52,061 nucleotides of DNA. It comes from Candidatus Uhrbacteria bacterium (GTDB lineage Bacteria > Patescibacteriota > Patescibacteriia > SG8-24). Below the pieces are notes generated by a model, which saw nothing but the letters and a program-made list of their open reading frames with translations, ran no database searches and had not been told where the DNA came from. The DNA is taken from contig JAFGIV010000007.1 in assembly GCA_016929435.1 (NCBI GenBank), positions 1-52,061 on the forward strand. Direction: 5' to 3'. The translations under genes and the position numbers were made by a program. This document shows, piece by piece, positions 2,915 to 46,846 of this stretch (position 1 is the first letter of the stretch; each line of letters opens with the position of its first letter).

Positions 2915-2943
2915 TTGACAGCCAAAACAATACCTGCTATAGT
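2915..2943 (+). promoter_or_regulatory. Consensus promoter TTGACA-N17-TATAGT
   Basis: TTGACA at 2915-2920, TATAGT at 2938-2943. Confidence 0.85.
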
Positions 2944-2983
2944 GGTATCTTGTGCCAGACGGACAAAGAGATCGAGGTTGACG

Positions 2984-3022
2984 ACAGGATCCAGTAACGC
3001 GGTTATTTAGCCTGATAACGGA
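2984..3022 (+). repeat. 39-bp repeat copy 1: acaggatccagtaacgcggttatttagcctgataacgga
   Basis: Identical to 3093-3131. Confidence 0.95.
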
Positions 3023-3092
3023 CCTTGAAACCCTCATTGCGATGCCTGGAGAGATGCTCCCGAACGGAAGAGATGCGCAAGACGAAGCGGAA

Positions 3093-3131
3093 ACAGGATC
3101 CAGTAACGCGGTTATTTAGCCTGATAACGGA
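3093..3131 (+). repeat. 39-bp repeat copy 2
   Basis: Identical to 2984-3022, offset 109 bp. Confidence 0.95.
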
Positions 3132-3134
3132 ACT

Positions 3135-3347
3135 TCATTCTCTCGAATAAAAAGACAGCCCTGGCCTTCGGACCGGGGCTGTTTTGTCTGTCCGTCTAGA
3201 GAAGACCGTCCAGGTATCTGTCCGGTAGACGCCCCAGTGGGCGATAATGGCATGTCCGCAGATACCCTGAAGTTTATCGTGCATCGACAGCTTGGCGATC
3301 AATTTCCTTGCTTTCCCTATTTCTTCGTCCAACTCCTGACCTTTCAT
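3135..3347 (-). CDS. Short hypothetical protein (70 aa)
   Basis: ORF with AAGGAG upstream of ATG at 3347; its 3' end runs through the ncRNA terminator. Confidence 0.35.
   Translation of the reverse strand: MKGQELDEEIGKARKLIAKLSMHDKLQGICGHAIIAHWGVYRTDTWTVFSRRTDKTAPVRRPGLSFYSRE
3155..3188 (+). terminator. Intrinsic terminator of the candidate ncRNA (potentially bidirectional)
   Basis: ACAGCCCtggccttcggaccgGGGCTGT TTTGTCT; the minus strand also ends in a T-rich tail (GTCTTTTT). Confidence 0.8.
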
Positions 3348-3371
3348 CCTTTTTCTCCTTGTTTAAAAAAC

Positions 3372-3402
3372 GCCTTCAGTTCGGACATGAAGGCGTTTTA
3401 AC
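3372..3402 (-). terminator. Intrinsic terminator after the nucleotidyltransferase gene
   Basis: Minus strand AAAACGCCTTCatgtccgaactGAAGGCGTTTTTT. Confidence 0.8.
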
Positions 3403-3434: not shown

Positions 3435-3908
3435 TCACGAACCATTCCGCAACACCTCGGAATATCCCTTCAGCAGCTCGGAACTGGAACGGACCTTCCC
3501 GCCGGTCCCGACATTGAAGACCATCCGGCAGCCGATTTCGTTGCATACCGCCACCTCGGGAATGTTGTCCTGAAACCGGTCGCCGCCGTTGGCAAAAACG
3601 TCCGGCCTGACCTTTCTCAAGGCGCTGCAGATGCTCATGTCCTCCGTACCCGGTTCATGGTCGCTGATGACCACCTCATCAACCCACCTGATCGATTCGA
3701 TGATTTCCTTCCTGTCCTCCTGCGGCATGAAGGGGTCCGTCCCCTTCTTGAGACGGATCCAATTGTCGTTGTTGACGATAACGACCAACCGGTCTCCGAG
3801 GGCCTTGGCCTCCCGGAACATCCGGACATGGCCGATGTGTATCGGGTCAAACCCGCCGCTGACCGCCACCGTAACCCCGTTCCCGTTCCCGTTTTTTTGA
3901 GTTTGCAT
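3435..3908 (-). CDS. Adenylyl/cytidylyltransferase-family protein (cytidyltransferase-like)
   Basis: GGFDPIHIGHVRMFREAKALGD (HxGH nucleotidyltransferase motif), SSSELL near C-terminus. Confidence 0.85.
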   Translation of the reverse strand: MQTQKNGNGNGVTVAVSGGFDPIHIGHVRMFREAKALGDRLVVIVNNDNWIRLKKGTDPFMPQEDRKEIIESIRWVDEVVISDHEPGTEDMSICSALRKVRPDVFANGGDRFQDNIPEVAVCNEIGCRMVFNVGTGGKVRSSSELLKGYSEVLRNGS

Positions 3909-11953: not shown

Positions 11954-12019
11954 ATTTTTATTCGGGCGGGCCGACAATTCGGTCCATGTGCCGTTTAATT
12001 ATTTGATTGATGCTTGTGC

Positions 12020-12140
12020 GCCGCATCGCGGGCGGGCACGGGGCGCACCGGACCGTCGCGGGCCGTCGCCGCATCGCGGGCGGGCACGGGGCGCACCGGA
12101 CCGTCGCGGGCCGTCGCCGCATTGCGGGCGGGCACGGGGG
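12020..12140. repeat. GC-rich 48-bp tandem repeat, about 2.5 copies
   Basis: gccgcatcgcgggcgggcacggggcgcaccggaccgtcgcgggccgtc from 12020 and 12068, partial third copy at 12116. Confidence 0.9.
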
Positions 12141-29667: not shown

Positions 29668-32678
<3,011 letters not shown>

Positions 32679-32679
32679 A

Positions 32680-33300
32680 TCAGCGGCGGAAATTACGGGT
32701 ACCGACCGTGGTCTGCAGGTAGACCAGGGACCGTTCGCGCGGATCAGCCGAAATGTTCTCGGTCCCCAGGACTATGGTTACCGCCGGCTGGCTGGAGGCG
32801 CCGTAAAGACCGGTGACGGCATCAAAACCGTACGGGTCGGCAACCGGACGGATGAAGAACGAGGCCCGAAACACGTTGATGCCGGTCGGGGTCAGGACCT
32901 GCGTGGCACCGCCGTTAATGGACACCAGGAGGCAGGATCGCACCGCCTCTGACCCTGACCCGCATTCCGAATCCTCCCTGTTCCGAAAGAAACGTATCCT
33001 GTCACCCTGTCCGTCGATGAGGGCCAGGGTATCGACGGCGTTCGCACCGTCCAGCGGCAGGTTCTCCCCATACCACGCGTAATCGACGGCCCCGGAACGG
33101 ATCTCCCGCACCATGGCCTCCATGGTATAGCGGGCATCCGACTGGACCCGCTCCATGCTGACGGTCTTGCGTTGGGCCCGATTGGACATCAGGAAAATGT
33201 CGGCCGCGGTCGTCAGCACGACCGAAAACAGGCCGAGGACAATCAGCGTCTCCATTAGCGTAAACCCGCCCTTTCCTTTCCTGTCCCTATCGCCAGTCAT
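32680..33300 (-). CDS. Prepilin-type N-terminal cleavage protein (PilW/GspJ-like)
   Basis: GKGGFTLMETLIVLGLFSVVLT. Confidence 0.8.
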   Translation of the reverse strand: MTGDRDRKGKGGFTLMETLIVLGLFSVVLTTAADIFLMSNRAQRKTVSMERVQSDARYTMEAMVREIRSGAVDYAWYGENLPLDGANAVDTLALIDGQGDRIRFFRNREDSECGSGSEAVRSCLLVSINGGATQVLTPTGINVFRASFFIRPVADPYGFDAVTGLYGASSQPAVTIVLGTENISADPRERSLVYLQTTVGTRNFRR

Positions 33301-33898
33301 AGATCGTTTCCGTCACGGCCACGTCACGGGGACGCTTGCCGCCGCCCCAGGCGACCAGGGATTCTATGCGGATGCCGACCTGCGGATCGGCCATGTCACA
33401 GGCCGAACCGGATTCCCTAACCTCCTGGCTTCGGCAAACCGGATTGAGGACCAGAAGCCGCCTGAAGGGAGTCCGAAAGCTGTCCGCCGGCCGGACGGTG
33501 TCTTGGGTATGGATTCCCAGGTGTTCGGAAGTCAGGCGCCAGACTTCCGTCCCCTCCCCGGACAGGGAGTCGGGAGCGAAGTCCAGGGACCAATCCCCGG
33601 AAACCGGGTCGAAAACGGCAATGGCCGTATAGTCCAGGCTTTCCCCCACAAGACCGTCGTCCCATCTCCGTTCCGCCAGCCAGTTGGAATCCCTGATGTT
33701 CCTGGCCACCTCCACCCCTTCCCGGGCCAGGTTGACGGCCACCATCATGTCCTCATTGGACTTTTGGGCGTTAAGTGACGATCCGGTCAGGGTCAGGGCC
33801 GCCACCACGGCCGTTGAAATGACCGCCAGGGCGACGATCACTTCAACGATCGACTGGCCGGACCGATTAACCCTTTCATTGCCGAAAAAAACAGGCAT
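33287..33898 (-). CDS. Minor pilin-like protein (PilV/GspI-like)
   Basis: GQSIVEVIVALAVISTAVVAAL. Confidence 0.75.
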   Translation of the reverse strand: MPVFFGNERVNRSGQSIVEVIVALAVISTAVVAALTLTGSSLNAQKSNEDMMVAVNLAREGVEVARNIRDSNWLAERRWDDGLVGESLDYTAIAVFDPVSGDWSLDFAPDSLSGEGTEVWRLTSEHLGIHTQDTVRPADSFRTPFRRLLVLNPVCRSQEVRESGSACDMADPQVGIRIESLVAWGGGKRPRDVAVTETIYDWR

Positions 33899-33902
33899 AG
33901 GA

Positions 33903-34538
33903 CTACTCGACGCTGACCTGTCCGGAAATCCCGTTGATTCGGACGGTCCTGACCTGACCGGTCTTGGCGTGGGTCAGGGTAACGGTGGCGATCGGGCTGT
34001 CGTTCCGTCCGTTGAACCAGGCCGTCGGACGGGGGGCCGAAAAGCTGATGTCCAGGAAACCTCCGCCGTCCGGATCGACTGCCGAAACGGAAACGTTGCG
34101 GCCGGCGGCGGCGAACTCCAGGCGCCTCAGCAGCTCGTATTCCTGGTAGGAGTGGTCCGAGTCGCCGCTCCTGTCCTCATCCCCGGTATCGGCAAAGAAA
34201 AGGGCCGTCCGCCCCCCGGTTCCGTAATCGATCCTCACCCCGTATCCGCCGCGGGGGGTATCCAGGATGCAGCGCCCGGATTCGCCGCACCCGCCGCCCT
34301 CACCGGCCGTGCAGAGGCTGCCGTTCATGTCCCCGGCTTCCCGACACTGGTATATGGACTGGGAAACCAGGGCAAAGGTCTGGGCCCGCCGGATCTCCGC
34401 AGCCAGGTTGGAGGCCGCATAGCGCAGCTCGTCGCCGTATTCGGAAACCCGAAAGTTGGCGACGGCCATGGTGGTCATGATCGCCATGATGCTCATCGTC
34501 ACGAGCAGTTCAACCAGCGTGAATCCCCGCCTGTCCAT
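33903..34538 (-). CDS. Prepilin-type protein (GspH/FimT-like)
   Basis: MDRRGFTLVELLVTMSIMAIMTTMAVANF. Confidence 0.8.
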   Translation of the reverse strand: MDRRGFTLVELLVTMSIMAIMTTMAVANFRVSEYGDELRYAASNLAAEIRRAQTFALVSQSIYQCREAGDMNGSLCTAGEGGGCGESGRCILDTPRGGYGVRIDYGTGGRTALFFADTGDEDRSGDSDHSYQEYELLRRLEFAAAGRNVSVSAVDPDGGGFLDISFSAPRPTAWFNGRNDSPIATVTLTHAKTGQVRTVRINGISGQVSVE

Positions 34539-34542
34539 ACCG

Positions 34543-35325
34543 TCAGAACACCAGCCCCCAATACCAGTCCAAAAGGGCATCCCCGAAAAGCAGGACCGTC
34601 ACCGCAGCCGCGGACAGGAACGTCCCGAAGGCCAACTGCTGGCCGAGCCTCTCCCGTCCGGTGATCAACATGACCGTGGCAACTGTCGCCCCTCCCACAT
34701 AGGCCAAGAACAGGGCCAGGAGGGTCTTCTGCCAGCCGAGCGCCGCCCCCATGAACATCCCGAGCCAGGCATCCCCGCCGCCGATCCAACGCCCCCGGGA
34801 AACCAGGAACTGGATGCGGAAAAAACCCCCGGCGATCACGGCCCCCAGGACCGGGGAAAACCACCCGTCACCCAGGGCCAAATGGGCCAACAGCACGGCA
34901 ACCGTCGCCGGACCGATCACCTCCGGCAGGATCATCAGGTATTTCAGGTCAAAAACGAAGGCAAAAACGAAAACCGATACCAGGAACCAGTGGAACAGCA
35001 GGCGCGGCAGGTCCGTCATGGCCGCCGTTTCCCCGGCCGGAACCGTGGCCATCAGGGCCAGGACGAACAGCAGGCCGGTTACGGTCTCCACGATCGGGTA
35101 ATGCGGGCTGATGGGTTTTCGGCAGTAGCGGCATTTTCCCCCAAGGAAAAGGTAGCTGAATACCGGCACCAGGTCCCTGGCCGCCAACCCGTGCCGGCAA
35201 TGGATGCATTTCGATCTCCCCCGGACAAAACTCTGTCCGACATGCAGCCGCCAGATGACGGCGTTCAGGAAACTGCCGATGATTGCCCCAAAGGCAAAAA
35301 CGAAGGTTTGGATGACGACATTCAT
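34543..35325 (-). CDS. pilD: Prepilin peptidase / A24 aspartic protease
   Basis: GAIIGSFLNAVIWRL, CxxC pair (CIHCRHGL, CRYCRKPIS), GGGDAWLGMFMGAALGW. Confidence 0.92.
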   Translation of the reverse strand: MNVVIQTFVFAFGAIIGSFLNAVIWRLHVGQSFVRGRSKCIHCRHGLAARDLVPVFSYLFLGGKCRYCRKPISPHYPIVETVTGLLFVLALMATVPAGETAAMTDLPRLLFHWFLVSVFVFAFVFDLKYLMILPEVIGPATVAVLLAHLALGDGWFSPVLGAVIAGGFFRIQFLVSRGRWIGGGDAWLGMFMGAALGWQKTLLALFLAYVGGATVATVMLITGRERLGQQLAFGTFLSAAAVTVLLFGDALLDWYWGLVF

Positions 35326-35373
35326 GGGGTAATTGTAGCATAACCGGACGAAAAATCCCTCCCGTCCCGCAGC

Positions 35374-35441
35374 AGAAACCCCTGCCTTTCGGCAGGGGTT
35401 TCTGGTTTACCGAATTCGGTAACCAAACGTGCGACGTTTGG
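35374..35441 (-). promoter_or_regulatory. Three consecutive hairpins in the 3' region of the pilin transcript
   Basis: AGAAACCCCTGCCtttcGGCAGGGGTTTCT; GGTTTACCGAATTCGGTAACC; CCAAACGTgcgACGTTTGG. Confidence 0.75.
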
Positions 35442-35457
35442 CACGCAATGAACTAAA

Positions 35458-35943
35458 CTACTCGGCCGGGGGGGTATAGTTGTATATACCGGTCGGATCA
35501 GCCTTCACGTCACCGCCGGACAGGTCACCGACGCTACCGCCTATGCAGAACGTAATCTCATAGGTGGAACCGTCAGCGCTGACATAGCTGTAAGGGTTGT
35601 TCGTAGCGTCACAGTCACCGTCTTCCGGTGTTGGGGCAGACGGAACCAGGCCCATGTAGGTGGAACCGGTAGCCGTACCGGCGAAACCGTCGCTGGAAAG
35701 CGAACTGGCTGTAGCCGATCCCAAAACAATGGCGGTGGCCTCCGTCGGATAGCTGTTCTCATCGGAGAAGTAGAGCTCCAGGGCGGTCTGGACCTGCTTG
35801 ACGTCAGCGACGCGCTTGGAGTCACGGGACTTCTGGCGGGCGCTGTTCAGGGCGACCACGGCCAAGGTGGACAGAAGTCCGATAATGGCAATGACGACCA
35901 GCAGTTCAATGAGGGTAAAACCCTTCTTGTTGGATTTGATCAT
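35458..35943 (-). CDS. Type IV pilin (major pilin candidate)
   Basis: MIKSNKKGFTLIELLVVIAIIGLLSTLAVVALNSARQKSRDSKR. Confidence 0.9.
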   Translation of the reverse strand: MIKSNKKGFTLIELLVVIAIIGLLSTLAVVALNSARQKSRDSKRVADVKQVQTALELYFSDENSYPTEATAIVLGSATASSLSSDGFAGTATGSTYMGLVPSAPTPEDGDCDATNNPYSYVSADGSTYEITFCIGGSVGDLSGGDVKADPTGIYNYTPPAE

Positions 35944-36100
35944 ATTGACACCTCCCTTCACCAAATGGATTATTTCCGAATCTTTCATCGGCCCGGAAAC
36001 GCCGTTACGGAAAGGCCCGGACCCGAAACGGGATGGGCTTATCCACAACAGAACGTATGTTCATGATACCACATTGCGTCCGAAAACGACACGGCAGGCG

Positions 36101-37312
36101 CTACATGCTGGTGGCCATGTTGTACATCGGCAGCATGATGGCGGCCACCATGATCCCGACCGCCCCACCCATCACCAGCATGATGATAGGTTCAATGGCC
36201 GAAACCAGGTTGTCCACCAGGTTGGACAGCTCCCGGGAATAGAATACCGTCAGCTTGTCCATGACGTCGGCCAGACGGCCGGTCTCCTCCCCCACGGCCA
36301 TCATCTGCGGGACCATCTTCGGCATGGATCCGTCCTTCCCGAACACGCCGGATATGGAATGCCCGTCCATCACCTCTTTCCTGGTCTGGACGATCAGCTC
36401 CCGGTACTTCTCGTTCCCCACCACATCGGCGCAGACCTCCAGGCTGGCCGGGATGTCCACCCCGCCCTCCACCAGGGTCCCGAAACTCCGGGTAAAACGG
36501 ACCAGGTATATCCGCTGCAGCAGCATCCCGAACACCGGCAGGCGCAGGATGGCCCCGTCAATGAACCGCTTCCCGTTCGGGGTCCGGTTCCAGAGGCCCA
36601 AACCAACGGCAGCGGCCACGATCCCGACGACGATCTGGATGACGTAATCCCTCATGAACTCGGACGTGACGATCAGCAGCCTGGTGGTCCACGGAAGGGC
36701 AGTCCCGGATTCGGTCAGGACCGCCGTCATCTTCGGCACCACGAAGGTCATCATGACGAACCCCACGATAACCAGGGCGATGATGACGACGATCGGATAG
36801 GTCATGGCCCCCTTGATCTTGGTCATCAGGTCATAGTCCCTTTCCATCTGGTCCGCCAGGTAGTCCATGACATCCTCCAGGCGGCCGGTCGTCTCACCGG
36901 AACGGATCATGTTCACGTAGAACTGGGAAAAGGCGTTCGGGTGCTTGGCCATGGCCACGGACAGGGCCAGGCCGGATTCTGACTCGTCGGCGATATCCAG
37001 GACAATGGCCTTCAGGCGCCGGTTTTCCGTCTGGGAAGCGACGGTCCTCAGGGCCCGGATTACCGGCACCTTCGCCCCCATCAGGACGGCGAATTGGCGG
37101 GAAAAGATGACCAGGTCCCGAATCTTCACCCGATCGAAAAACGGCAGGTTGATCTCTATCTCACCGCCCCCTTTCCGGTGTTCGGACAGGGAAATTACGG
37201 TAAGGTTCCGATCCTTCAGGGTATCGGCCGCCAATTCCAGGTTGTCCGACTCCACCAGACCGGCGACGGTCGCTCCGCTACGGTCGGTCGCCCGGTATTC
37301 GTATTTCGGCAT
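36101..37312 (-). CDS. pilC: Type II secretion/type IV pilus inner membrane protein
   Basis: FSRQFAVLMGAKVPVIRALR, MIRSGETTGRLEDVMDYLA. Confidence 0.93.
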   Translation of the reverse strand: MPKYEYRATDRSGATVAGLVESDNLELAADTLKDRNLTVISLSEHRKGGGEIEINLPFFDRVKIRDLVIFSRQFAVLMGAKVPVIRALRTVASQTENRRLKAIVLDIADESESGLALSVAMAKHPNAFSQFYVNMIRSGETTGRLEDVMDYLADQMERDYDLMTKIKGAMTYPIVVIIALVIVGFVMMTFVVPKMTAVLTESGTALPWTTRLLIVTSEFMRDYVIQIVVGIVAAAVGLGLWNRTPNGKRFIDGAILRLPVFGMLLQRIYLVRFTRSFGTLVEGGVDIPASLEVCADVVGNEKYRELIVQTRKEVMDGHSISGVFGKDGSMPKMVPQMMAVGEETGRLADVMDKLTVFYSRELSNLVDNLVSAIEPIIMLVMGGAVGIMVAAIMLPMYNMATSM

Positions 37313-37325
37313 TGTTTTTTTACGG

Positions 37326-37724
37326 CTATTTCTTCATCCCCAAGACCTCCTTGATCTTAGCCACGGCCTCGGCCGGCACGAAATGGGCCTTGATGAGGTA
37401 ATCGGCGGCCCCCTCACCCATCCCCTTTTCTATATCCTCCTTCTGGCCCAGGTTCGTCAGCATGATAACCGGGATATCCTTGGTTGCCGGATCCCCCTTC
37501 AGCCGCTTAAGGACCTCAAAACCGTCCAGTTTCGGCATCAGCACGTCCAGAAGGATCAGGTCCGGCAGCTCCTTGGCGGCTGCCTTCAGCCCCTCATCCC
37601 CGTCACGGGCGGACAGGACGGAAAAACCGTCCATCTCCAGCTTGGTGGCATAGATGCCGGAAAGGAAGGAGTCGTCGTCCACGATCAGGATTCTGGTCCG
37701 GCCGTTCTTGTTGTCTTCGGTCAT
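37326..37724 (-). CDS. CheY-like response regulator
   Basis: RILIVDDDSFLSGIY, DLILLDVLMPKLDGFEVL, PVIMLTN. Confidence 0.93.
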   Translation of the reverse strand: MTEDNKNGRTRILIVDDDSFLSGIYATKLEMDGFSVLSARDGDEGLKAAAKELPDLILLDVLMPKLDGFEVLKRLKGDPATKDIPVIMLTNLGQKEDIEKGMGEGAADYLIKAHFVPAEAVAKIKEVLGMKK

Positions 37725-37773
37725 ATCGTCTTGGTTATGGCATCGTTATGGCTAATTCGTTCTTCCCCATTCC

Positions 37774-39513
37774 CTATTCCTTGGTGATCCGCATGATCTC
37801 CTCCATGGTCGTCAGGCCCTCCAGCACCTTTATCAGCCCGTCCTCCTTCATGCTTATCATCCCGTTCTTCCTGTTGGCTTCCTGGACCTTCGGTATGGGG
37901 AATCCGCTGTTTATCAGTTCCCTCATTCCGGCGTCAAAGGGCATCAGTTCGGCCACGGCCACCCGGCCGCTGTATCCGGTATCGTTGCACCGCAGGCATC
38001 CCCTTCCCCGATAGACCTTCAGTTTCGGCCCGCTCATGTCTATGTGGGAAAGGTAGCTTTTCGGAACCGCCTCCAGGCCCTTCCTGATCTGGGCCTCCAC
38101 TTCGGGCGGCAGCTCCTGCTCGGCCTTGCACCGTTCGCATATCTTCCGGGCCAGCCGCTGGGCAATGGCCAGGTTCATGGTGGCGGAAAGCAGGAACGGC
38201 TCGACATGCATGTCGATGAGGCGCGGCACCACGCCCAAGGCATCGTTGGTATGCAGGGTGGAGAAGATCAGGTGACCGGTGAGCGCCGCATGGACTGCCA
38301 GCTCCCCGGTCTCGGTGTCGCGAATCTCCCCGACCATGATGATGTTTGGGTCCTGGCGAAGAAGGGACCGCAGGCCGGCGGCAAAGGTAAACCCGACTTC
38401 AGGCCGCACCTGGGACTGGTTAACCCCCCGGATCTGGTATTCCACGGGATCCTCCAGGGTTGAGATGTTGACCCTCTCCTCGTTCCTCATGTTCAGGATG
38501 GTGAACAGGGTGGTGGATTTTCCGGAACCGGTAGGGCCGGTAATGAGGAACATCCCGTGCGGCTTCTGGATCTCCTGCTGGATGATCTCCACGTACTGCC
38601 GCCGGAAACCGAGCTGCTCAAGCAGGGGAACGCCCTTGGTGGTGTCCAGGATACGCATCACGACCTTCTCCTCCTCGGTCATCGGCAGGGTGGAGACGCG
38701 AAAATCTATCTGCTTGTCCCCGAAGGTCTCCCGGATCCTTCCGTCCTGCGGCACCCGCGTCTCGTCCAGCTTCAGGTTGGCCAGGACCTTGATGCGGGCC
38801 ACTAGGGAATTGTGGACGTATTTCGGGACCTTCAGGGACGTCCGGAGCACGCCATCGACGCGGTAGCGGACCCGGGTCTCTTCCCCGAAAGGCTCGATGT
38901 GGATGTCCGAGGCCCCACCCTCCACGGCATGGCGCATGACAACGGAAACGATCCTGGAAACCGGCGCACCCTTTATGACATCGCTCAGGTCAATTTCGCC
39001 CTCCTTTTCCGCCTTGGGCTTTTCGACCAGCTTGTCCTTGGCCACCTCTAGGGCCTTGGCGACCTCCTTTCCGATTTCCTCGTACTTCTTCAGGGCATGA
39101 CGGAAGGAAGCCTGGGAGATTATGTGGTATTTCGGGCGGAAGCCGCTGGCTTGAGACAAAAAATCAATCGCCTGGACAGCGGTCATGTCCCGCGGGTCGA
39201 TCATGCCTACGCTGACGGAATCCCCTTCCCTGGCAAAGGCGATGGACCGGGTGTTCTCGGCCACAGGCTTGGATATCAGCTTGATGACCTCCGGATCAAT
39301 CTCGTGACCGACCAGATCGGTGTAGGGAACGTTAAGCAGGGTGGCCTGCCCCTTCACCAGCAGCTCGTCGTCAACGATCCGGCTCTTGCGGAGCGTCTCG
39401 TCCGCCGTTTCCCCGGCCTGAGCGGCCTTTTCCCCAATTTGTCTGAACTGCTCGTCGGTGACGTGCCCGGATTCGAGCATTATCTCCAGCAGTTCGTTTC
39501 CGGTTCTGTTCAT
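37774..39513 (-). CDS. pilB: Type IV pilus assembly ATPase PilB/GspE
   Basis: GPTGSGKSTTLFTILNM, ASDIHIEPF, IMVGEIRDTETGELAVHAALTGH, CxxC pairs near C-terminus. Confidence 0.95.
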   Translation of the reverse strand: MNRTGNELLEIMLESGHVTDEQFRQIGEKAAQAGETADETLRKSRIVDDELLVKGQATLLNVPYTDLVGHEIDPEVIKLISKPVAENTRSIAFAREGDSVSVGMIDPRDMTAVQAIDFLSQASGFRPKYHIISQASFRHALKKYEEIGKEVAKALEVAKDKLVEKPKAEKEGEIDLSDVIKGAPVSRIVSVVMRHAVEGGASDIHIEPFGEETRVRYRVDGVLRTSLKVPKYVHNSLVARIKVLANLKLDETRVPQDGRIRETFGDKQIDFRVSTLPMTEEEKVVMRILDTTKGVPLLEQLGFRRQYVEIIQQEIQKPHGMFLITGPTGSGKSTTLFTILNMRNEERVNISTLEDPVEYQIRGVNQSQVRPEVGFTFAAGLRSLLRQDPNIIMVGEIRDTETGELAVHAALTGHLIFSTLHTNDALGVVPRLIDMHVEPFLLSATMNLAIAQRLARKICERCKAEQELPPEVEAQIRKGLEAVPKSYLSHIDMSGPKLKVYRGRGCLRCNDTGYSGRVAVAELMPFDAGMRELINSGFPIPKVQEANRKNGMISMKEDGLIKVLEGLTTMEEIMRITKE

Positions 39514-39526
39514 GTCTTTGTGTCCC

Positions 39527-39832
39527 TTATTCCTCCACTTCCATCTTCGGGGACGGACGTCGGTAGTCCTCCCCCGCCGTATCCGGTACGGTCACCCCGT
39601 AATCCGGTCCGTAATGCCGAAGCGACTTGAAATCCGTGCGCTGAAAGATCCGGCCGTCGATCGAAACAGGATCGCTGGGACGGGCACCGACAGCGGCACG
39701 GCCGACCGCCTGATCCGGTTTGGGCAACAGCCGATCCCGGTAACTGAAGGTCAAAACCGCCAGCAGGACGATGATGATCGCCCCGATGACCCCCAACTGT
39801 ATTCGATCCTTCCTTGACATGGCCATAGTCCG
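39527..39832 (-). CDS. Hypothetical single-TM protein in the pilus operon (PilP-position)
   Basis: MAMSRKDRIQLGVIGAIIIVLLAVLTF; position after pilO. Confidence 0.6.
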   Translation of the reverse strand, partial: RTMAMSRKDRIQLGVIGAIIIVLLAVLTFSYRDRLLPKPDQAVGRAAVGARPSDPVSIDGRIFQRTDFKSLRHYGPDYGVTVPDTAGEDYRRPSPKMEVEE

Positions 39833-39848
39833 TGCTCGGTTCGTGGGG

Positions 39849-40460
39849 CTATTTGACGGTTCCCCCAACGGTCTTTCCGGAAACCATCCGGTATGCCTTC
39901 ATGGTGAACTGGTAGCGGCCGTTATCCGGCGAATGGCCGGTCTGGACGATATCCAACAGCCGCTCCAGGTTCTGAAGGTCACCCATCAGGTTCTTGAAAT
40001 CCAGGTAGTTGCCGCCGGAAAACGATACCGTAACCCGCAGGGCCTGAAGCCCGTCGGCGGCCGGTTCACCGACGGACATGTCCACGACCTCCATGGACAC
40101 GGCGTTCCTTTCGGCGATCTCCTCCAGCTGGACCACCAGTTCGGGAAAATCAAGGCCTTCAGGCACCATGTGCCTGACCCGGTCACGGTATTCCTCCGGC
40201 ACCGCCTGATAGGCCTTCAATCCGGCTTCAACCCGCTCGATATAGGCCTGGTCTTCGGCAATGCGGCCCTTCAGGGCAGTGAAGTCGTAGCTGCCTCCCG
40301 GCATCAGCGGGGCAATCTTCGGGGAAAAAACCAGGAACCAGGCTCCGGCCACATAGGCCACGACCAGGAATGCGGCAATCGCCGGAAGCCAGGCCGCCAA
40401 TACCCTCCTGATCCGTTCCCCTTTCGGCACCGCTATCTTTTTTCCTTTGTCTTCCGGCAT
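39849..40460 (-). CDS. pilO: PilO-like type IV pilus assembly protein
   Basis: Single N-terminal TM, length and position in pilMNO order. Confidence 0.7.
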   Translation of the reverse strand: MPEDKGKKIAVPKGERIRRVLAAWLPAIAAFLVVAYVAGAWFLVFSPKIAPLMPGGSYDFTALKGRIAEDQAYIERVEAGLKAYQAVPEEYRDRVRHMVPEGLDFPELVVQLEEIAERNAVSMEVVDMSVGEPAADGLQALRVTVSFSGGNYLDFKNLMGDLQNLERLLDIVQTGHSPDNGRYQFTMKAYRMVSGKTVGGTVK

Positions 40461-40461
40461 A

Positions 40462-41145
40462 TCATTCCCCTTTCGTTTCCCGAACGGACGGGTGTCCTGT
40501 CCAGACCTTCGGATCCACGGTCAGTATGACGGTCGCATAAACTCCGGACATCAGGCCGTCCTTGTTCACGTCACCGGCCACTGAGGTGTTCCTCATCTGA
40601 AGGACCTCGTTCAGGCCGCTGAAATGGATCAGCTGCTGGGCCATGGCCCGATACTTCGGGGCCCTGACGTCCAGGGAAACCAACCCGCTGTCCGTGTCAA
40701 CCGTCATCCGGTCATACCTTATTCCGCCAAGGGTATTGGACTCCAGGAACTCGATCAGCTCGGTCGGGTAGCGGTGGCGGTCCAAGACCTTGGCGGCCAG
40801 TCCCAACTGACGGCTGAAGCGCATGGCCTCCCCCATCTCCAGCTCCTTGGCCTCGGCCTCTGATGCCACGGCTTCCTGCTGCCGCTCCAACTGGACCTTT
40901 TCCCCTGACTTGGCCTCCAGGCGGCGATTCAGCACGTAATATCCGACCAGGATGCCGACTGTCACGACGACTAGGGCCATGACCGTCCCCAACAGCCTGA
41001 GCCTGAAATCCGGCCCTTCCTGACCAAGAAGGTCCTTTGGAACCAGGGAAACCCGCAAGCCGGAAAAGGCCTCGGAAATCCCCGATTTCCTGACCGTCGA
41101 TTCCTGGCTTCCGCCCTTTATTTCGGTGGTTAAGTCTTCCGTCAT
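40462..41145 (-). CDS. pilN: PilN-like type IV pilus assembly protein
   Basis: Single TM plus coiled-coil, position after pilM. Confidence 0.75.
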   Translation of the reverse strand: MTEDLTTEIKGGSQESTVRKSGISEAFSGLRVSLVPKDLLGQEGPDFRLRLLGTVMALVVVTVGILVGYYVLNRRLEAKSGEKVQLERQQEAVASEAEAKELEMGEAMRFSRQLGLAAKVLDRHRYPTELIEFLESNTLGGIRYDRMTVDTDSGLVSLDVRAPKYRAMAQQLIHFSGLNEVLQMRNTSVAGDVNKDGLMSGVYATVILTVDPKVWTGHPSVRETKGE

Positions 41146-41151
41146 AGGACG

Positions 41152-42255
41152 TCAGTCGATGTCACGCATCGCCAAGCCGACACTGACGGCATAGCGGTAT
41201 CCGATCTCGTCGAGTACGGGCCGAAGGCCCTCCGGATAGACTATCCTGGCCCACGGGTCGCCGACATAGACCTTGGTCGAAAGCTTCCCCTCCAGGTGGG
41301 AGATGAGCGACGGGAGGGCCGAGGCGCCGCCGGTGACGATTACCCGTTCCACCGTTTTCACGGACTGGCCCTCTCCCTGTTCGGCATACAGGCCCATGGA
41401 ATACTGGAGTTCCGTCAGCATCGGCATGACCGTATCGGCAAAAATCTTCGGCAGCTCTTCCCCGGGGTACAGGCTGGAAACGCCCTTGATGTCGCACTTC
41501 ATCCTTTCCGCCTCCTGCAGCTCGATGCTTAGGCTCTGGCTCATGGCCCGGGTAAAGGAGTTGCCGCCCATGTCCAGGCTCCGGGCCACGTACGGAATGC
41601 CGTTCTCGACAATGACTATGTTCGTCCGGACCGAACCGATGTCAACGATCATGGTAATGGAACGGTCCTTCCCGATCAGGGACCTTATCAGGGGGAAGGT
41701 TTCGGTCTCCAGACTGACCATCTCCAGGCCGGCCGCCCGAAAAATGCCGACATACCTCTGGACCAGGCTGCGGGAGGCGCCGGTAATAAGGACCTGGTTG
41801 GATATTTTCGGCTTCTGCCCCGTCTCCTCCTCTTTCTTGGCGGCCACCGGCCTAACGGCGGCAACCTGGGGGATTACCTTGAAGTCCAACACCATGTCCT
41901 CCAGCGGCAGGGGGATCAGTTTCCTGGCCTGGGCCGTAACGGTTTCCCGGAAATCCTTGTCCTCCGGCGACTTCTGAACCGTCACCACGGAACTGAATAC
42001 GGAAGATATGGGCAGGCTGGCCACGGCCTTGGTGGTGGTGGTCCGTGCCTGACGGCATATCTCCTTCAGCAGCTTGGCGGATTCCTTCTCATCGGTCATG
42101 GGCGGAAACGGGTCGTTTCCCGGGTGGTTTTCGCTGAAACCGTAGGTCACCAACCGGGCCCTTCCCTTCTCATTGCACAATTCGACGATCTTGGTGCCGC
42201 CCATCCCGATATCCACGCCAATGAAATTGTTCTTTCCCTTTCCGAACAGACCCAT
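41152..42255 (-). CDS. pilM: Type IV pilus assembly protein PilM
   Basis: FIGVDIGMGGTKIVEL, VDIGSVRTNIVIVENG, IVTGGASALPSL actin-like fold motifs. Confidence 0.92.
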   Translation of the reverse strand: MGLFGKGKNNFIGVDIGMGGTKIVELCNEKGRARLVTYGFSENHPGNDPFPPMTDEKESAKLLKEICRQARTTTTKAVASLPISSVFSSVVTVQKSPEDKDFRETVTAQARKLIPLPLEDMVLDFKVIPQVAAVRPVAAKKEEETGQKPKISNQVLITGASRSLVQRYVGIFRAAGLEMVSLETETFPLIRSLIGKDRSITMIVDIGSVRTNIVIVENGIPYVARSLDMGGNSFTRAMSQSLSIELQEAERMKCDIKGVSSLYPGEELPKIFADTVMPMLTELQYSMGLYAEQGEGQSVKTVERVIVTGGASALPSLISHLEGKLSTKVYVGDPWARIVYPEGLRPVLDEIGYRYAVSVGLAMRDID

Positions 42256-42331: not shown

Positions 42332-45300
42332 TTACGGTAACGGGGGGGCCGCCCCGTATACCGGCAGGGATTTCGAAAGGTCACCGAATCCCGGCGGCGG
42401 GTTAAGTATGGCCCGTCCGTCATATTCGAACCGCTCCGAACCCCGCTCCTCGCTCCGGTAGGACCGGCTCAAGTGGAACTGCCTGGCCAAAAGGAGGCCC
42501 TTGACCGTCAGCGGTTCGGGGCTGTCGGTAGCCGGCGGCGCCACGGTATAGAAACCGCCCTGACCGGCCGAAAAGAAGGCCCCGGCCAGATCGGTAACGT
42601 CCTCATCCACGTAGATGTTGCCGCCGGACCGGTCTTCCCGGTCAATCGCCATCCAGCCGACCGAAGCGACCTGCCGGACTGACTGCAAACCCACGAAATG
42701 GACGGGCTGGTATTCCACGTTCCCGCGGAAGGTGATCGATCCGCCCCTGACGACGACCGTACCGCTGGCGTCCACGGTGTCGGAAACCGAATCCGGAACC
42801 GTAACGTCGGAAAGGACCTCAAGATCCTCCCCCTCGATGAGATATACCTTCCCTCCCAGCGGCTGCCCGCTGAACGCCGGAAAAACGCCGCCGAAATCCG
42901 CGGCCCGAACCCGCACCACTTCCCCATACCTTCCGTCCAGCAGCCCCGCCATGTCTATCCGGCCCAAAGCCGTGCTGAAGTGGTTGATGCTACCGGGCCG
43001 TTCCAGGACCGTCAAGCGGTCCAGTTCGGTGTCAATATCCGTTTTCGGGCAGAGTTCGGTCCGGAAGGTCGGCTGGCCGTTGGTTGTCTCGATCAGCCCC
43101 TTGGCCGTGATGCAGAAGGTGGCGTTAAACCGGTTTTCCGGCGGAACCTCCCGGAAACGGATATGGCTGCCGGAACGGACATTCCCGCGGGGTGCCTCCA
43201 CCCAGGGGAATATGAGGCTGATGCACCTTTCGGCCCCCGCACAGATGTCCCCGAAACCCTCCACGCAATCCGCGTCAACATGGCAGGCATCGATCAGCAT
43301 GTCCCCGTCCCGGTCCTGCGGCTGGCCGGCGGAATCGAAACACTGACCCTCAATCGGGCAGTCCGGATCGCCGAAACAGACGAACCCGGTAACCTCACAC
43401 AGACCCCAATCCGTCCGACAGGACTGTTGGGACCAGGAATCGCCTGACTCGTCGGTTGCCCATGTCGGGGCCGGACAGCAGGTCGGGTCGTTCTCGTCCA
43501 GGCAACAGCCGCTTTCGGCGGAAAGGGCACAGCTGTCGGGCGTCACCGGATCGTCCGGGACATACCCGTAGGAGTACCAGCTGCAGGCATAGTCCCGGTC
43601 CTTATCGCAACGGCCCAACTGGGTGCAGCTGTCACCGATGCCGTCAAGGTTCCAGTCCTCCTGCCCGGGATTCTCCAGGCCGACACAGTTGTCGCACGGG
43701 CGGTAGGCGGGTCCGTATTCGGTCGAACCCGCGTAAAGGTCGGTGTAATACCCCTCCGTAGCCCTGTCGCCGTCAAAATCCGCCCAATGGCAGGGGTTAT
43801 ACCCCTCACCCTCGTCCGGTGTCGGCAGGGTCCGACAGATGTAGAACTCCCGCCGTTCTGACGCCACCGAATTCCCGTCCGCATCGCTGATGCCGACCTG
43901 CACGAAATAGTGGGTATCCGGGTTGTGGTTCTGGTCCGACAGGGACACTGACGAAAGGTCAATGCTGTCCTGGCATATCGCCAGGTTTCCGGCTCCGGTA
44001 TCCGGGAAAGAGGCGGATCCGATCAGGGATCCGGCGCTGTCGGTGATTTCCACCCGACAGGGATTGCCTATGAAACCGACGTTGTTTGCGGCCGTAAAGC
44101 TGACGCTTAGGCCCATCTCCCGGTAGGCGGAACGGCCGGGATCGAAAAACGGCGACTGGTCGGAACCCAAACTTTCCGGCCGGGAAACCTTTAGCGGACC
44201 GTTAGCGATCGGCGTTACCGTAACCGGCACGGACAGGGGGGACGAATCGGCCCCGATGTTGTCCGCACCGTCCTCGGCCCCGGCGGTCAGGACCATCGTT
44301 CCCCTATTCCGGAACCGCATGGTCACGCCGTCGACTATGGGATCGATCACGCATTTTCCGCTGTCGGAAACGAAATTCCTGGTTCCGCCGTAATCCATGC
44401 CAAGACGGCAGCGGCAGATGCCGGAAGAGTCCAGCGGGTCGGGCTGGAAGGGGTCGGACGGCACTATCCGAATCTGCCGCTGCGCACCGTAGGGGACGGT
44501 CAGGCTGACCCCGTCCCAACCCTCCACCTCAATCCCATTCACGACCGGCGGGTTTTCCTCATAAACCCGGTTCCGGAAAATCCTCTCCCCGTATTCCGGC
44601 AGGCCGCTTCCCTTCGTGGCCGACAGGGAAACCGTAAACTCACGGGACGAGGTCGGTGACGCGGGAAGGTCGCAGGTGATGTCCAGGGACGGGTCGGTAA
44701 CCGGGGCAACGGCGTAGACCATCAGGGCCTTGCCCGGAACAACGGTCATGTTGAAAACGGACGGATTGCTGACCGTACAGGAAACATCGGCATAGGGATA
44801 GGCAAACTCGGTTCCGGAAGCCGTGCCGACAAAAACCGCAAAATCCGGGTAAGATCCTGTCCCCCGAATGGCGATCGTATGTTTTTGTCCGACCCTGGAG
44901 GCAGTCATGACATTGGCGCTGACCGAGGGGTCGGTTTCCGCGATCCAGACCGGGCCGCTGTAGTCCGGCACGGATTGGCAGGCGGAAACCTGCCAATCCA
45001 TCGGAGCGCAGGAAGCCTGCCCCCAACACCCCTCATCCAGGCAGTCGATTCCTCCCGCCGGCAGAAGGTCATCGCCGTCGTTGTCTGCCTGGTCAAAACA
45101 GGCTCCGCCGGTCTCCCCTCCTGACTGGCAGACATACCCGCCAGCGGTCGTGACTCCCTCACAATCCGGATCGCGGCAGTCGATCAGTCCGTCAGCGTCG
45201 TTATCCAAACCGTCCGAACACTGGCGGGACGGATCCCCGGAAGATTCGGTTGCCCGGCAATAGGCAGCACCGGACAGCTGGCCGGGCCTGTTCAGGCAAT

Positions 45301-46846
45301 CCGGATCGCGACAGTCCGCCCCCTCCCCGGTATCGTTGTCCAAACCGTCCGCACAGGCGTCGAAGCGGTAATCCTCGTGGTCCGGGCACCATTGGCAATG
45401 CCCGAATTTCCGCCGACAGTCGCTGTCGTCGCAATCCATGGGACCGTCCGCGTCGTTATCCGTAACGTCAGCGCAGAGGTTGATGCCCTGACCGAGGTCA
45501 AACTCCCGATCCGAACAGAAAACGTTGGGGTTGGAGGGGTTCTCCACCCCAATGCAGTCCGGATCGGCACAGTCGATCAGGTGATCCAGGTCATTGTCAA
45601 TCCCGTCGAAACACTGCCCAGGGGCATCCGATCCGTCGGCGGCCCGGTGCTCTACCGATGGGCAGGCCGGATCCCCGGCGCAGTCGTAGTCAAGGCAGTC
45701 CCGCCCGGTCGAATCGATCGCGTCATACTCGTCGTCCCCGAAGCTGGTGTCAACATCGTTGTCCCGGTCATCGGCACAAAGCCCGACCTCGCCCACCGGA
45801 CAGCCGTATTCAGGGTGCCGCCAGCATATCCGGGAACCCGGACTGTCCTGGACATCGAGCAGGAAACGGAAAACCGTCTCCGTGCCGTCCAGGAACTCCC
45901 GGTTGTCCCGGCAATCGGTCCGACCGTCCCCGTCGTTGTCGAAACCGTCACCGCAGGGATCCTGGCCGTTGAGGATGCCGGGCGGACCGTACTCGTTTCC
46001 GTATTGGCAATAGCCGGTGCAGGCCGTGCCGGAAAGGTTCAGCCGTCCGCAGCGCAGGTTGCAGTCGGGATCAAGACAGTCGGCCAAACCGTCCCCGTCG
46101 TTGTCGAAACCGTCGTGGCAGGTGGTTTCCGGAATCTCGCAGAGCAGGCCGGCATCCAGCGGGTGCCCCTGTTTCCCCACGCAACGGATGTCGGCGCAGT
46201 TCGGGTAATAGTCAAGGTCATTGTCGACGGGGTTGCCGCCGGACAGGTCAGCGCAGGTCAGTCCGGTATCGCCGATCGGCAAAAGCGATTCCGTCTCATC
46301 CCCGTTTCCCGGCGCACTGCCGTCAACGTAAAAACGCAGCCCGCTCCTGCTCCCGCTCGCTCCCAACTGGAAAACGTAAAGGCTGAAATCGTATGCCCCT
46401 TCCGACAGGCCGGCATAGTCCACGGACATCGCGAAATCAACATCGCACCCCCCCGGACAACCGGCTGAGGAGCGGCGCTCGTAGCCGTTCCTTCCGGAGG
46501 TGATGTCCGACTCCGGGGGAAGGAAATGGGTGCCGTTGGGGTTGGCGTAGGCCGAGGCCGAAACGAACGGCGGGACATCGAAAAGTATGAAGGAGAGCAT
46601 TTCGGTCGTCGGGCCGTAACTGCCGCCGTCGAACCGAATCCGGAATTTCCCGTCCGGATTGACGTGTTGGGTGTATTCGTAACGTATCGGCTGGCCGCCA
46701 ACGGTCAGGGAACCGGAGCAGACGTTTCCGTCGCAGGTCAGGGGCGCGACTATTGCCCTGGAGGAAGGGACGGAAAACGTAACCGACGCCAACAGGAGCG
46801 TGGCGAACGAGGCGACGGCGACCGTAAAAAACCCGGGATTCCTCAT
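42332..46846 (-). CDS. Giant (1504 aa) secreted Cys-rich protein with MopE-like/calcium-loop-like DNDxDG repeats
   Basis: Repeats such as CSDGLDNDADGLIDCRDPDC, CHDGFDNDGDGLADCLDPDC, CFDGIDNDLDHLIDCADPDC; N-terminal signal-like segment. Confidence 0.85.
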   Translation of the reverse strand: MRNPGFFTVAVASFATLLLASVTFSVPSSRAIVAPLTCDGNVCSGSLTVGGQPIRYEYTQHVNPDGKFRIRFDGGSYGPTTEMLSFILFDVPPFVSASAYANPNGTHFLPPESDITSGRNGYERRSSAGCPGGCDVDFAMSVDYAGLSEGAYDFSLYVFQLGASGSRSGLRFYVDGSAPGNGDETESLLPIGDTGLTCADLSGGNPVDNDLDYYPNCADIRCVGKQGHPLDAGLLCEIPETTCHDGFDNDGDGLADCLDPDCNLRCGRLNLSGTACTGYCQYGNEYGPPGILNGQDPCGDGFDNDGDGRTDCRDNREFLDGTETVFRFLLDVQDSPGSRICWRHPEYGCPVGEVGLCADDRDNDVDTSFGDDEYDAIDSTGRDCLDYDCAGDPACPSVEHRAADGSDAPGQCFDGIDNDLDHLIDCADPDCIGVENPSNPNVFCSDREFDLGQGINLCADVTDNDADGPMDCDDSDCRRKFGHCQWCPDHEDYRFDACADGLDNDTGEGADCRDPDCLNRPGQLSGAAYCRATESSGDPSRQCSDGLDNDADGLIDCRDPDCEGVTTAGGYVCQSGGETGGACFDQADNDGDDLLPAGGIDCLDEGCWGQASCAPMDWQVSACQSVPDYSGPVWIAETDPSVSANVMTASRVGQKHTIAIRGTGSYPDFAVFVGTASGTEFAYPYADVSCTVSNPSVFNMTVVPGKALMVYAVAPVTDPSLDITCDLPASPTSSREFTVSLSATKGSGLPEYGERIFRNRVYEENPPVVNGIEVEGWDGVSLTVPYGAQRQIRIVPSDPFQPDPLDSSGICRCRLGMDYGGTRNFVSDSGKCVIDPIVDGVTMRFRNRGTMVLTAGAEDGADNIGADSSPLSVPVTVTPIANGPLKVSRPESLGSDQSPFFDPGRSAYREMGLSVSFTAANNVGFIGNPCRVEITDSAGSLIGSASFPDTGAGNLAICQDSIDLSSVSLSDQNHNPDTHYFVQVGISDADGNSVASERREFYICRTLPTPDEGEGYNPCHWADFDGDRATEGYYTDLYAGSTEYGPAYRPCDNCVGLENPGQEDWNLDGIGDSCTQLGRCDKDRDYACSWYSYGYVPDDPVTPDSCALSAESGCCLDENDPTCCPAPTWATDESGDSWSQQSCRTDWGLCEVTGFVCFGDPDCPIEGQCFDSAGQPQDRDGDMLIDACHVDADCVEGFGDICAGAERCISLIFPWVEAPRGNVRSGSHIRFREVPPENRFNATFCITAKGLIETTNGQPTFRTELCPKTDIDTELDRLTVLERPGSINHFSTALGRIDMAGLLDGRYGEVVRVRAADFGGVFPAFSGQPLGGKVYLIEGEDLEVLSDVTVPDSVSDTVDASGTVVVRGGSITFRGNVEYQPVHFVGLQSVRQVASVGWMAIDREDRSGGNIYVDEDVTDLAGAFFSAGQGGFYTVAPPATDSPEPLTVKGLLLARQFHLSRSYRSEERGSERFEYDGRAILNPPPGFGDLSKSLPVYGAAPPLP

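Follow-up and report, generated by a model that had tools for sequence, protein, structure and literature searches.

Here we describe a noncoding RNA gene from Candidatus Uhrbacteria, located in a 52,061-nucleotide (nt) stretch of DNA (the window), which has members in at least 18 genomes from three families, is framed by its own promoter and terminator, retains its base pairing between genomes and lies among varying neighbour genes. The locus is almost certainly a real conserved RNA gene. Our favoured reading, held with slightly more confidence than doubt, is that it encodes a stable, independently transcribed, trans-acting structured RNA with a putative protein-binding scaffold or decoy mechanism, representing a new Patescibacteria family that probably belongs to the class ABY1.

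An earlier note, made from the letters of the window alone, had proposed an independently transcribed small RNA consisting of a TTGACA-N17-TATAGT promoter, two identical 39-nt motifs 109 bp apart and an intrinsic terminator. Each of these elements is present at the positions listed in Table 1, and the layout as a whole is supported by relatives that carry the promoter and terminator in the same places and show compensatory changes. The extent given there, 2915–3188, is slightly off, as it covers promoter plus RNA; the RNA itself most likely runs from approximately 2949 to approximately 3186. The promoter (TTGACA at 2915–2920, a 17-nt spacer, and TATAGT at 2938–2943 with a TG extension) matches the consensus at 11 of 12 positions and ties for the best among 10 sites found in 10 kb, where 4.8 are expected. 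At the other end, a strong hairpin and its tail (3155–3186) comprise the stem ACAGCCC (3155–3161)/GGGCTGT (3176–3182) followed by TTTTGTCT, with a fold z-score of −4.0. In the window genome (G000; 1.1 Mb in 28 contigs, 99.9% complete), the RNA gene is flanked by a methyltransferase gene (2214–2831) and a nucleotidyltransferase gene (3435–3908); because both are on the minus strand, the RNA is not the leader of a downstream plus-strand gene.

Table 1. Features of the RNA gene in the window (positions count from the first letter of the window).
Feature	Position	Strand	Basis
Sigma70-type promoter, TTGACA-N17-TATAGT, TG extension	2915–2943	+	Consensus match; same position in relatives
Noncoding RNA	2949–3186	+	Ends inferred from promoter and terminator
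P1 5′ strand CUUGUGC, conserved family 5′ end	2949–2955	+	Comparison of members
Core hairpin copy 1 (extra; within P1 loop; no pseudoknot partner found)	2973–3027	+	R3, 69.7 bits
39-nt identical repeat, copy 1 (within core 1)	2984–3022	+	Self-comparison
Pseudoknot 5′ strand GAGAGAUG	3049–3056	+	Six strong pairs with 3139–3144, two more across a bulge
P3 mini-hairpin CCGAACGG, CCG..CGG-like in many members	3060–3067	+	Visual comparison, weak
P1 3′ strand GCGCAAG	3075–3081	+	Pairs 7/7 with 2949–2955
Core hairpin copy 2 (between P1 and pseudoknot strands)	3084–3136	+	R3, 58.9 bits
39-nt identical repeat, copy 2 (within core 2)	3093–3131	+	Self-comparison
Pseudoknot 3′ strand UCUCUC	3139–3144	+	Comparison of members
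Intrinsic terminator, hairpin and T-rich tail	3155–3188	+	Fold z-score; seen in relatives

Two further features lie close by. A 70-amino-acid (aa) open reading frame (ORF) on the minus strand (3135–3347) with a good Shine–Dalgarno sequence, AAGGAG, is convergent with the RNA and overlaps its terminator; transcripts of this ORF would run antisense to the 3′ end of the RNA. Its single relative, in G003, is weak (33% over 43 aa, E = 0.0045), and it has no Pfam match. At 3367–3399, a 12-bp perfect inverted repeat, AAAACGCCTTCA/TGAAGGCGTTTT, is probably a bidirectional terminator of the adjoining minus-strand gene.

Homologues were recovered with covariance models. A sequence-only model built from the two window copies (R1), run with permissive filters, weakly matched G007, G008 and G009, three genomes from the same family as the window; these matches are all intergenic, with a promoter before and a terminator after, unlike those in unrelated genomes; in G008, two copies lie 117–120 nt apart. 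A model with the shared hairpin structure added (R2) recovered the same three genomes, and the six-sequence model made next (R3) matched 23 of 381 genomes of the class at E ≤ 0.01. After inspection, 18 genomes including that of the window were kept, six from family f1, ten from f47 and two from f24. The covariance search for homologues with compensatory changes that the earlier note had called for thus yields intergenic homologues in 17 other Patescibacteria genomes of three families. Matches that were coding or lacked the gene layout were set aside as chance or unconfirmed (R1: L050 and L052 in G031, L140 in G023; R2: L145, L146 and L148; R3: L159 and L164–L167). A pattern search for promoter plus P1 in 380 genomes of the phylum turned up no convincing member beyond the class; L170, from this search, was rejected as the core is missing. 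Many known members, among them that of the window, escape this pattern, and the taxonomic range is therefore a lower bound.

Sequence-level searches were silent: BLAST with the whole element had no match in 192 relatives, phages or plasmids, and neither did scans of genome and viral collections with exact or degenerate motifs. Within the family, the BLAST silence reflects the 10 genomes covered being nearly all of separate genera. By SecA, the best relatives are Magasanik-, Uhr-, Falkow- and other Patescibacteria at approximately 50–58% identity, which places the genome in Patescibacteria, and the SecA neighbours are too distant for the locus to be common to them. The lack of a BLAST-level homologue would suit a recent 39-bp DNA duplication beside a promoter and terminator that arose by chance, but the homologues recovered with covariance models, which share the gene layout exactly and have helices that covary, leave this reading scarcely credible.

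The gene layout is strikingly uniform among members. All 17 full-length members have a TTGACN-N17-TANNNT promoter at the same position, its −10 box lying 7–9 nt before the GTG in the conserved 5′ end, typically CUUGUGC, which itself follows a few bases past the promoter. In G246, the promoter was taken to be the upstream site, at offset 152. A hairpin with a T-rich tail 3′ of the core was identified by script in 15 members and by reading the sequence in G007 and G009, where the terminator is CCGGCGCGAGCCGG-ATTTTG and the script instead chose a distant hairpin. The flanking genes, named by eye, vary (DEAD-box helicase, class III aminotransferase, RecQ-like helicase, elongation factor G-like, adenosine deaminase-like and others) and are common to near relatives, not to distant ones. 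Because the neighbours differ, the RNA is not a cis leader and acts in trans. Own promoter and terminator, conserved structure and the lack of a conserved linked gene were thus all found, as for an independent trans-acting noncoding RNA gene.

Comparison of members revealed a fold of three parts. The first helix, P1, is formed in the family by CUUGUGC and GCACAGG, the latter directly before the core hairpin. With hand-picked strands, and omitting G008, in which they are bulged (GGCCAGUGC/GCACGGCC), 102 of 112 cells are paired, and compensatory changes are seen from C-G to A-U (G205, G329) and from U-A to C-G (G117). The loop of P1 tolerates large insertions: in L154 (G157) it exceeds 100 nt and holds several additional GC-rich hairpins, and in the window it accommodates a second core.

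The second part is the conserved core hairpin, GAAG..CAGGA..AGUAACA..GUUA..GCCUG..CUUC, which is built from GAAG/CUUC (replaced by GAGG/CCUU in copy 1 of the window), a short helix of CG type, CAGG/CCUG and a conserved apex; GGA, A, AAC and GCC are near-invariant. Across 20 distinct sequences, 92% of the cells are paired, changes on both sides occur in 6 of 11 pairs, and the covariation score is 0.225 vs 0.106 for shuffled alignments (0/500), figures that favour the core because the alignment had been fitted to the model structure. Sliding the core by 1–3 columns leaves at most 52% paired and a score of at most 0.065. The unconstrained minimum-energy folds of G007, G008 and G009 include the core.

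The third part is a pseudoknot, a helix formed by the P1 loop with bases immediately 3′ of the core hairpin, and its strands co-vary between genomes (for example, GCGGUUUGGG/CCCAAACCGC, UCUGGGAG/CUCCCAGA and CAUUUGAGA/UCUCAAAUG). The best uninterrupted helix that the P1 loop can form with the 24 nt past the core averages −8.25 kcal/mol with each genome's own strands vs −5.23 kcal/mol with strands swapped between genomes (0/200,000 permutations), and comparison with shuffled 3′ flanks gave a Fisher combined p of 7e-7 (9e-7 without near-duplicates). The helix is clear in approximately 10 members and weak or absent in G281, G157, G003, G205, G246 and G329; the window pair GAGAGA/UCUCUC is not significant alone (p = 0.18). 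Two other pairings were rejected. The unconstrained fold of the window RNA joins copy 1 to copy 2 at −73.6 kcal/mol, whereas P1 together with the two cores reaches −68.6 kcal/mol, to which the pseudoknot would add approximately −7.6 kcal/mol, but single-core relatives fold without such pairing, and a helix between 2957–2965 and 3189–3197 would require terminator read-through.

The 39-nt repeat is the core hairpin of the RNA. The copies start 109 nt apart and remain 90% similar over 52 nt; that they are identical for 39 nt and diverge sharply beyond could reflect either constraint or gene conversion. A 29-mer from the repeat, allowing up to three mismatches, was found in the window solely at both copies (chance expectation 0.00). 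Two cores are present in three genomes of the window's family (the window's own, G008 and G003), whereas most members have a single one; copy 2 lies between the P1 and pseudoknot strands, where single-core relatives have their core, and copy 1 sits inside the P1 loop. Since most members are single-core and copy 2 alone has the usual setting, the repeat is a functional module that has been duplicated, not what defines the RNA. Repeats of other kinds occur elsewhere in the window: a tandem repeat with a 48-bp period upstream of a murB-like gene (12019–12115) is its longest exact repeat, and a 1504-aa secreted-looking protein with many calcium-binding-like DGxDNDxDGxxDCxD repeats is encoded at 42332–46846 (minus strand), adjoining a type IV pilus-like gene cluster (31770–42255).

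The earlier view that the locus holds no credible ORF also stands: the largest inside it are a 25-aa ORF, MRKTKRKQDPVTRLFSLITELHSLE, and an open frame of approximately 45 codons, neither preserved in homologues. A small-peptide or dual-function gene would account for the stop codon of the 25-codon ORF immediately before the terminator and for a reading, QDPVTRLFSLITDL in copy 1, that relative to the repeat is equal in both copies, both of which tblastn detects. This is nevertheless very improbable, as an in-frame TGA precedes copy 1, the 109-nt spacing puts the copies in different frames, core lengths of homologues differ by 1–2 nt, and conservation tracks base pairing. The gene probably works as RNA and not through a protein.

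How the RNA might act can be sketched from this architecture. Transcription would start from the consensus promoter, a few bases before CUUGUGC, and end at the hairpin terminator. The 5′ end would pair with GCACAGG (GCGCAAG in the window), adjoining the core hairpin with its conserved internal and apical loops, and the P1-loop strand would pair just 3′ of the core to give a compact nested pseudoknot. In this scheme the conserved core hairpin would be the recognition module for a protein, P1 and the pseudoknot would provide a stable frame, and a second core would give twice as many binding sites. We propose a protein-binding scaffold or decoy role tentatively, as plausible but somewhat short of probable. 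A more speculative possibility is a new housekeeping-type Patescibacteria ribonucleoprotein (RNP) RNA, a nested-pseudoknot frame carrying a putative protein-binding hairpin, with a job that no known RNA performs elsewhere.

The main rival to a protein-binding scaffold or decoy is a base-pairing small RNA, in which the apical stretch AGGA..AGUAACA..GUUA would be a seed for mRNAs or another RNA and copy 2 a second seed. Consistent with this, sequence is strongly conserved, above all in the apical loop with its near-invariant bases, and the gene acts in trans under a promoter and terminator of its own. However, the conserved stretch lies mostly in predicted helices (CAGG/CCUG, UAAC/GUUA) and not in an open loop, and the elaborate frame of P1 and pseudoknot is closer to a structured RNP RNA; we therefore regard seed pairing as unlikely, albeit a serious contender.

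Patescibacteria are tiny, mostly uncultured bacteria whose genomes are very small and for which few RNAs peculiar to them have been described. That an RNA gene with a conserved knotted fold is kept across several of their families suggests that it probably has an important role. The RNA is absent from Rfam, and its structure, coordinates and 18-genome set form a directly testable seed for a new RNA family. A literature search, with most subscription papers outside its reach, found no description of it.

Comparison with known classes began with Rfam 15: at the gathering score, none of the 4227 families matched the window or members from two families, and up to E = 10 chance matches alone appeared, in agreement with the earlier note, which had recognised no tmRNA, RNase P, signal recognition particle (SRP) or 6S RNA. 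SRP and RNase P RNAs, with their conserved cores, are excluded by this result. A tmRNA, with its tRNA-like ends and tag ORF, is excluded because its gene lies elsewhere in the genome (RF00023, E = 3.7e-55), and ARAGORN detected neither a tRNA nor a tmRNA in the window. A regulator of RNA polymerase resembling 6S RNA, too divergent for Rfam, would fit the strong, abundant-type promoter, the one locus per genome, the similar size and the failure of RF00013 to match anywhere in the genome; since the same search misses 6S in some control genomes, this absence is weak evidence. Yet 6S RNA is a single long hairpin with a central bubble, whereas this RNA combines its core hairpin with a distinct 5′ helix and a pseudoknot, and RF00013 is unmatched even at E ≤ 10, which makes such a regulator improbable.

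The nested arrangement also recalls hepatitis delta virus (HDV)-like ribozymes. The strand order P1, P2 (pseudoknot), P3, P1′, P4, P2′ of their nested double pseudoknot is present, as is a 7-bp P1, and a putative self-cleaving ribozyme could be envisaged. Against it, the conserved catalytic C junction 5′ of the P2 3′ strand was not found, the distance between core and pseudoknot strand being variable (0–9 nt) and devoid of a conserved cytosine motif; P1 starts at the expected transcription start, leaving no upstream leader to cleave; HDV-like Rfam families are unmatched; and conservation sits in the core hairpin, whereas P4 of HDV-like ribozymes is variable. Self-cleavage of this type is very doubtful.

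Other parallels come from RNAs that bind proteins or stand alone. CsrB/RsmZ-type decoy RNAs carry repeated protein-binding hairpins, and repeated putative binding hairpins would likewise account for the core duplication, although most members have a single core and the hairpin motif is different and longer. Standalone structured bacterial noncoding RNAs whose role is unknown or housekeeping include raiA, ROOL, GOLLD, 6S and tmRNA. The RNA described here differs from them in fold and matches none of the Rfam families in sequence or structure, but shares with them its own promoter and terminator, independence from any linked gene, strong structure and a conserved core, and we rate it as a new RNA family among these standalone structured RNAs, with an architecture of its own.
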